64,000 nt of DNA from Aggregatilinea lenta. GTDB taxonomy: Bacteria; Chloroflexota; Anaerolineae; Aggregatilineales; Aggregatilineaceae. The DNA lies in the NCBI RefSeq assembly GCF_003569045.1, contig NZ_BFCB01000001.1:527189-591188 (forward strand). Reading direction: 5' to 3'. Under the pieces are notes generated by a model. It worked only from the letters and a program-made list of their open reading frames with translations, made no database searches and had not been told where the DNA came from. Of this stretch, positions 60,280 to 63,930 are shown piece after piece. Position 1 is the first letter of the stretch; the number at the start of each line of letters is the position of its first letter. Both the position numbers and the translations under genes were made by a program.

Positions 60280-62694
<2,415 letters not shown>

Positions 62695-62746
62695 GGTGAG
62701 TCGTTCCTGGTTCTGTTTGAAGTGCTGTTGCGATTATCGCACAACG

Positions 62747-62783
62747 AAAAACGCCGCGAGTGTTGGTTCAACACCCACGGCGT
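62747..62783 (-). terminator. Intrinsic terminator/attenuator in the mutS2 leader
   Basis: ACGCCG-TGG-GTGTTG-AAC-CAACAC-TCG-CGGCGT followed by TTTTT on the minus strand: two 6-bp stems separated by a 3x3 internal loop. It ends 53 nt before the mutS2 ATG. Confidence 0.8.
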
Positions 62784-62810
62784 CAGGGGATCAAGTCTGC
62801 TGGTGGCCGG

Positions 62811-62913
62811 AAAAAGGAGGACCTAGCACGACAACCCGGCATGACGAACCGAGACGGGTATCAAACCGTTGGGCCGATTGAGTTTCAAAACGTTCACCGG
62901 GCTGCCTCCTTTT
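62811..62913 (-). promoter_or_regulatory. Shine-Dalgarno/anti-Shine-Dalgarno pair bracketing the mutS2 leader ORF
   Basis: On the minus strand AAAAGGAGG (62913-62905), the ribosome binding site of the leader ORF, is perfectly complementary over 9 nt to CCTCCTTTT (62820-62812), which lies 2 nt after the leader stop codon. Confidence 0.6.
62823..62897 (-). CDS. Probable leader peptide upstream of mutS2
   Basis: A 24-codon ORF starting GTG (MNVLKLNRPNG...) and ending RHAGLSC, with an ideal AAAAGGAGG 7 nt before the start and a consensus promoter 56 nt upstream of it. An intrinsic terminator follows before mutS2. The very strong ribosome binding site and lack of other coding potential argue that it is translated. 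Its role in attenuation is inference. Confidence 0.65.
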   Translation of the reverse strand: MNVLKLNRPNGLIPVSVRHAGLSC

Positions 62914-62952
62914 CGTAGTGTAGCCGCGTGTGGCGCACGCGACCCAGAGAAA

Positions 62953-62981
62953 AGTATACGGGGTCCGCGTGGCGCTGTCAA
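62953..62981 (-). promoter_or_regulatory. mutS2 promoter
   Basis: TTGACA, 17 nt, TATACT on the minus strand; expected start about 62946, giving a leader of about 250 nt. Confidence 0.88.
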
Positions 62982-63072: not shown

Positions 63073-63930
63073 ATGACAACTGACCTCGACCATTATTTGC
63101 GGCTGTGGGACCTCCGCGATCCCGATCTGTTGGCGGAGACGCCGCGCAGCGCAGTCTATGCGGCCACCCGGAACGGCGGCGAAAAGGTCGCGCTGAAGCT
63201 GCTCACGCCGGAGGGCGCGGGCGATGAAGCGGACGGCGCGATCGCGCTGCGCTACTTCGACGGGCACGGCGCGGTGCGGCTGTTGGAGGCCGACGACGGC
63301 GCGCACCTGCTCGAATACGCCGGAGACGAGGAACTCGCGCAGGTCGTCTGGCGCGGGGATGACCTGGGCGCGGCGACGATCATCGCCGGGGTGCTGAACA
63401 AGCTGCACCAGCCCCGGCCCGGCGTGCCCGTGCCGCCGCTGCGCACGCTGCGGTTACGGTTCCGCGCGCTGTTCGACCGGGCCGCGCGCGATGAGGCGTC
63501 CGGCGACAACTCGATCTACGTGCGCGGCGCGCGGGCAGCGGAATACCTGCTTTCGACCGCGCGCGACGAGTGCGTGCTGCACGGCGACATCCAGCACCAC
63601 AACATCCGGCGGCATCCGGTGCGCGGCTGGCTGGCCTACGACGCGAAGGGGCTGTACGGCGAGCGCTCCTACGACGCCGCGAATACGCTGTGCAACCCGT
63701 CGCACGCCGACGACCGGGTGATCTCCGAAGCGCGGATGCTTCAGGTAAGCGAGATTCTGGCGGACGGCATGGGCGTGGACCTGGGGCGGCTGCGGGCGTT
63801 CGTGTTTGCGTACGCGTGCCTCAGCGCAAGCTGGTTCGGGGACGTCAACACCGCCGAGGATGAGCACGTCAAGCGCCAGATCCTCGCCGTGGCGCGCAAC
63901 GCCGAGCGCCACGCGGATTTTTCCGCGTAG
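63073..63930 (+). CDS. APH(6)-like aminoglycoside/hydroxyurea phosphotransferase
   Basis: 285 residues, kinase-like fold. VLHGDIQHHNIRR contains the catalytic HGDxxxxN, and GWLAYDAKGLYGERSYDAAN is the metal-binding Asp-Xaa-Lys-Gly segment typical of the APH(6)/StrB family (aminoglycoside/hydroxyurea antibiotic resistance kinases). LLEYAGDEELAQVV matches the hinge region. Members inactivate streptomycin by 6-phosphorylation, but many chromosomal homologues have unknown substrates. AGGAG is 7 nt before the ATG. Divergent from mutS2, sharing its 378-nt upstream region; a TATGAT lies at 63044. Confidence 0.88.
   Translation: MTTDLDHYLRLWDLRDPDLLAETPRSAVYAATRNGGEKVALKLLTPEGAGDEADGAIALRYFDGHGAVRLLEADDGAHLLEYAGDEELAQVVWRGDDLGAATIIAGVLNKLHQPRPGVPVPPLRTLRLRFRALFDRAARDEASGDNSIYVRGARAAEYLLSTARDECVLHGDIQHHNIRRHPVRGWLAYDAKGLYGERSYDAANTLCNPSHADDRVISEARMLQVSEILADGMGVDLGRLRAFVFAYACLSASWFGDVNTAEDEHVKRQILAVARNAERHADFSA

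Follow-up and report, generated by a model that had tools for sequence, protein, structure and literature searches.

The mutS2 Locus and Its Leader

The window, a 64,000-nt stretch of the Aggregatilinea lenta genome, carried mutS2 at 60280–62694 on the reverse strand, with the ATG at 62694. The 804-aa product contained MutS_V, MSSS SH3, and Smr domains and was a true, complete MutS2 (TIGR01069, 863 bits); this gene is the putative target of the leader described here. In Bacillus subtilis, collided ribosomes are split by MutS2, and its loss results in erythromycin sensitivity (PMC10897456). A phosphotransferase gene of the APH(6)/hydroxyurea type (PF04655, 191.7 bits; under the NCBIfam cut-offs for APH(6)) was located back-to-back with the leader, at 63073–63930 on the forward strand and ~92 nt from the −35 box of the leader promoter. 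The available sequence beside mutS2 in the other family members did not contain it.

The leader spanned 62981–62695, and all of its elements were on the reverse strand. The predicted promoter (TTGACA-17-TATACT, 62953–62981; −35 TTGACA at 62981–62976 and −10 TATACT at 62958–62953) preceded a Shine-Dalgarno sequence (SD), AAAAGGAGG (62905–62913), which paired, as the 5′ strand, with GCAGCCCGG in helix P1. This SD belonged to a leader ORF of 24 codons (MNVLKLNRPNGLIPVSVRHAGLSC) running from GTG at 62897 to TAG at 62823. Codons 12–15 of the ORF (TTGATACCCG, 62855–62864) formed the core of the strand for a predicted antiterminator helix, P2, whose pairing in the window extended to about 62843, and the last codons held the first part of a conserved anti-SD (GCCGGGTTGTC, 62830–62840), the 3′ strand of P1. 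Downstream of the stop lay nine nucleotides exactly complementary to the SD (CCTCCTTTT, 62812–62820) and then a strong intrinsic terminator, P3, with its hairpin at 62750–62784 and its T-tract at 62747–62751. The 5′ arm of the hairpin (62784–62769) was common to P2, and 52 nt separated the terminator from the mutS2 ATG. The leader matched no Rfam covariance model up to E = 1.

The promoter, SD, 24-codon ORF, 9-nt SD complement, and terminator were thus all found where an earlier sequence-only reading had placed them. That reading had also put the SD complement right after the stop, which held for the window but not for most relatives, where the complement was within the last ORF codons.

Conservation among Relatives

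MutS2 was used as the anchor in the search for relatives because the leader diverges too fast for a DNA-level search, the sole match of which was the terminator stem of one relative. The close relatives were Anaerolineae MAGs. The comparison set comprised the 14 members of the family (f1) with an intact mutS2 5′ end. A scan for an SD-driven short ORF plus a terminator found the layout before mutS2 in all 14 members, and the identical scan found it in none of the 34 order-level relatives outside the family. A scan of the same kind over 73 contig loci gave three matches, each a family member counted before, and the layout was absent from the 70 other mutS2 loci. Searches with R1, a covariance model built from the leader, found the leader before mutS2 and nowhere else. 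Weaker matches (G001:C63, G036:C98, G000:C1:351057, and others) looked, on reading, like ordinary terminators or chance.

The order of elements was the same in 14/14 leaders: near-consensus promoter, GAAAGGAGG-type SD, start, short ORF, terminator, and mutS2. The promoter agreed with the consensus at 11/12 positions in 12 of the 14 relatives and at 10/12 (TTGTCA) in two. The start codon was GTG, with ATG occurring once. An intrinsic terminator was located between the promoter and mutS2 in every leader, its 5′ arm beginning with GCCGTG and its distance to mutS2 ranging from 23 to 161 nt.

Frame and Peptide of the Leader ORF

The ORF comprised 23–26 codons in 13 of the 14 leaders and 39 codons in the remaining one. 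The first in-frame stop was 69–78 nt from the start, inside an interval of 66–81 nt, in 13/14 leaders, and the stops in the other frames, unlike the in-frame stop, were scattered. Shuffled sequences had their first stop within this interval in 3–10% of cases for each leader; the product of the shuffle probabilities, about 3e-15, overstates the significance because the leaders are related. Of 13 leaders checked for the spacing between the stop and the start of the anti-SD CCGG, 11 had a value of exactly 14 nt.

The leader peptides diverged, and the sole recurring part among the 14 was a C-terminal AG, which is encoded by the anti-SD. There was no common codon run for one amino acid (trp/his/ilv type) in the leader ORFs, and no arrest motif such as RLR (erm, hflXr type) was conserved among the 14 peptides. 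Amino-acid attenuation and arrest-peptide models were ruled out by these unconserved peptides. A frame conserved without its peptide argues for a leader ORF that is translated with its product free of selection, and against attenuation that is specific to an amino acid or an arrest peptide. Throughout the family, this short ORF with a strong SD and a kept frame and stop overlapped the predicted antiterminator.

Helices of the Leader

In helix P1, the SD and start region paired with the end of the ORF (GGAGGC..CCGG with CCGG..GCCTC). It was the strongest single helix, with a summed energy of z = −10.5 against dinucleotide shuffles and 91–94% of cells paired, and it was weak in L003, L007, and L114. 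Reading of the window sequence gave GGCAGCCCGG paired with CCGGGTTGTC and then with the post-stop TCCTTTT, the stop codon being bulged out; the long helix of the window therefore drew on the ORF-end CCGGGTTGTC plus CCTCCTTTT. P1 enclosed the P2 strand in a loop of about 66 nt. P1 and the terminator did not overlap, and both folded together. This indicated that P1 alone cannot switch termination and that another element must connect translation to termination.

A second complement of the SD/start region, or its copy, was present between the leader stop and the terminator in L004, L007, L008, and L009 (GGGGCTGCCTTTC in L004, for example), and it could compete with P1. Pairing of the anti-SD with the post-stop sequence (P1′; z = −3.9) had moderate support, was found in some leaders only, and is possibly an accessory element.

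The terminator 5′ arm paired with a strand near the middle of the ORF (nt 30–45, codons 11–15) that the sequence-only reading had not noted. This helix, P2, had one register in 14/14 leaders, with 9 pairs and 92% of cells paired; the strand was shifted a little upstream in L003 and downstream in L013, whose ORF is long, and the helix was weak in L014. Compensatory changes occurred at 4/9 pairs (A-U/U-A at 95:203, C-G/U-A at 96:202 and 97:201, and G-C/A-U at 92:206). They were spread across the MutS2 tree, and one of them separated the window from its sister L003. The joint covariation of P1 and P2 was 0.329, with slid controls at ≤0.13 and 0/500 shuffles reaching that value; the L013 strand was hand-realigned for one covariation run, and the unadjusted alignment gave the same picture. 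Relative to dinucleotide shuffles, the P2 duplex energies had z = −5.1; a test that exchanged ORFs and terminators between 11 non-redundant leaders gave p = 0.0008. In close relatives, the P2 codons were unchanged and neighbouring codons had changed.

In L008 and L009, the arm bases at columns 202–203 were paired in P2 but lay in an internal loop, unpaired, in the terminator. P2 is therefore not mere terminator pairing counted twice, and these concerted changes indicated constraint on the ORF strand itself. On the evidence of the shared register, the covariation, and the shuffle and swap controls, P2 and P3 are mutually exclusive.

The antiterminator strand ended 30–36 nt upstream of the stop in 12/14 leaders. 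If a ribosome waits at the stop, this position is roughly one footprint upstream of it, so that a second ribosome colliding with the first would cover the strand.

Folding and the Proposed Switch

Partition functions were calculated for nascent RNA that stopped short of the terminator 3′ arm, with regions masked as ribosome. With the SD and start masked, the mean P2 pair probability was 0.54–0.99 in 13/14 leaders; masking of the middle of the ORF abolishes P2 by construction. These masked-folding results favoured a model in which ribosomes at the leader start would turn mutS2 on. At equilibrium of the full-length RNA, the terminator beat P2 in most leaders; switching must therefore depend on kinetics, like that of other attenuators.

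Here, we propose that the leader controls mutS2 as a ribosome-mediated transcription attenuator, in the ON state when ribosomes are held near the leader start, and we consider this the likelier account, with appreciable doubt. Three helices would compete: P1 (SD/start with the ORF end), P2 (codons 11–15 with the terminator 5′ arm), and P3, the terminator; P2 would require leader codons free of ribosomes. On a leader without a ribosome, P1 would close over the ORF and the terminator would form (OFF). A ribosome in the middle of the ORF would cover the P2 strand, and the terminator would again form (OFF). If translation were stalled or jammed and ribosomes were held at or near the leader start, P1 would be blocked and the P2 strand exposed; with the 3′ arm still to be synthesized, P2 would then take up the 5′ arm of the terminator, and RNA polymerase would read into mutS2 (ON).

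Read-through is thus probably governed, according to this model, by the position of ribosomes on the leader ORF. The sequence-only reading had likewise made read-through depend on translation of the leader ORF, which fits with a frame and stop conserved without the peptide and with a covarying antiterminator inside the ORF. Since the peptide is unconserved, what the leader senses would be the state of translation as such, not an amino acid or a peptide-specific arrest. More tentatively, a leader whose SD competes with the end of its own ORF, and whose antiterminator is exposed only in the gaps between ribosomes, may respond directly and independently of its peptide to ribosome jamming or to the availability of free ribosomes, with feedback to the factor by which collided ribosomes are split. 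Ribosome trouble would then induce its own rescue factor, MutS2.

Alternative Explanations

Without a ribosome and before synthesis of the 3′ arm, P2 still formed in about half of the leaders, which makes the ribosome-free OFF state less certain. It speaks for an identical device with the opposite logic for the empty RNA, in which the leader senses scarcity of free ribosomes: slow initiation would let P1 close before the 30S subunit arrives, and the P2 strand in its loop would capture the terminator arm as a pseudoknot (ON), and ready translation would cover P2 (OFF). P1 and P2 are topologically compatible given the loop of about 66 nt, and the conservation of P1 would suit an initiation timer. 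However, in the folding without a ribosome, P1 displaced or excluded P2 in L009–L012 and L014, and the combined P1/P2 pseudoknot is beyond the scoring of the folding programs, which are nested. We regard this logic as improbable, although it is the most serious competitor to the attenuator opened by ribosomes at the leader start.

A protein that binds the leader might instead choose between P2 and P3, with the ORF as an accessory. MutS2 could be this protein, acting through its SH3/KOW-like domain, which would amount to autoregulation. The KOW domain of B. subtilis MutS2 binds uS10 in the manner of NusG (PMC10897456), and the MSSS SH3 domain is present in the MutS2 of the window. A protein-only switch would nevertheless have no need of the frame and stop kept in nearly every leader, and no conserved protein-binding motif was seen in the leaders beyond the helices, so that we give this explanation little weight.

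The switch in its earlier form consisted of the SD:anti-SD pairing and the terminator acting without an antiterminator. Both parts were present, and P1 surpassed every other single helix, yet the description was incomplete: its two parts are not mutually exclusive and could not switch by P1 alone, P2 was missing, and its covariation would be left unexplained. A mechanism of this form is very unlikely.

Equally slight is the chance that the leader is an independent small gene or small RNA, with mutS2 served by another promoter: promoter, SD, ORF, and terminator do make a complete small-gene set, but the peptide is unconserved, the leader was linked to mutS2 every time with only terminator-like chance matches elsewhere in the model search, the best promoter in the gap between terminator and mutS2 scored 4–9/12 in most members against 10–11 for the leader promoter, and the gap of only 23–24 nt in L008 and L009 leaves no room for a separate mutS2 promoter.

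Relation to Known Systems and Significance

Terminator/antiterminator switches that depend on a uORF are known for hflXr and vmlR (PMC6310831; PMC9226507). The leader rli80 of hflXr (lmo0762) in Listeria monocytogenes is an attenuator with a terminator, an antiterminator, an anti-antiterminator, and a short ORF, and its target, like that of the mutS2 leader, is a ribosome-splitting factor (PMC6310831). It differs in its 14-codon ORF with an RLR arrest motif, in its response to macrolides and lincosamides, and in its target, a GTPase of another family (PMC6310831); in the mutS2 leader, the peptide is unconserved and an SD:anti-SD helix encloses the ORF. In the vmlR leader of B. subtilis, a stall on the uORF blocks the anti-antiterminator and frees the antiterminator against an intrinsic terminator, and stalls at initiation are effective (PMC9226507). 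This leader has a uORF of 3 codons, an ABC-F factor as target, and an additional translation attenuation at the vmlR SD (PMC9226507). The uORF of toiL-topAI in Escherichia coli also senses several ribosome stalls, including those at the start codon, but its effects are on how the downstream gene is translated and on Rho-dependent termination, with no intrinsic terminator/antiterminator pair (PMC12121999).

The kind of device is therefore known from hflXr and vmlR, and the mutS2 target and the phylum appear to be new. The sequence-only reading knew of no described attenuator for mutS2, and none for mutS2 or in Chloroflexi was found in the full-text literature searched, which did not extend to subscription papers, so priority is not certain. 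Judged by that literature, no attenuator would have been reported earlier for either mutS2 or Chloroflexota. Its unusual trait is a peptide-independent ORF inside an SD:anti-SD helix, and the leader is compact enough for reporter work. How the levels of collision-rescue factors such as MutS2 are controlled is poorly known; from the leader, a feedback loop is predicted whereby disturbances of translation would turn on the factor that clears jammed ribosomes.
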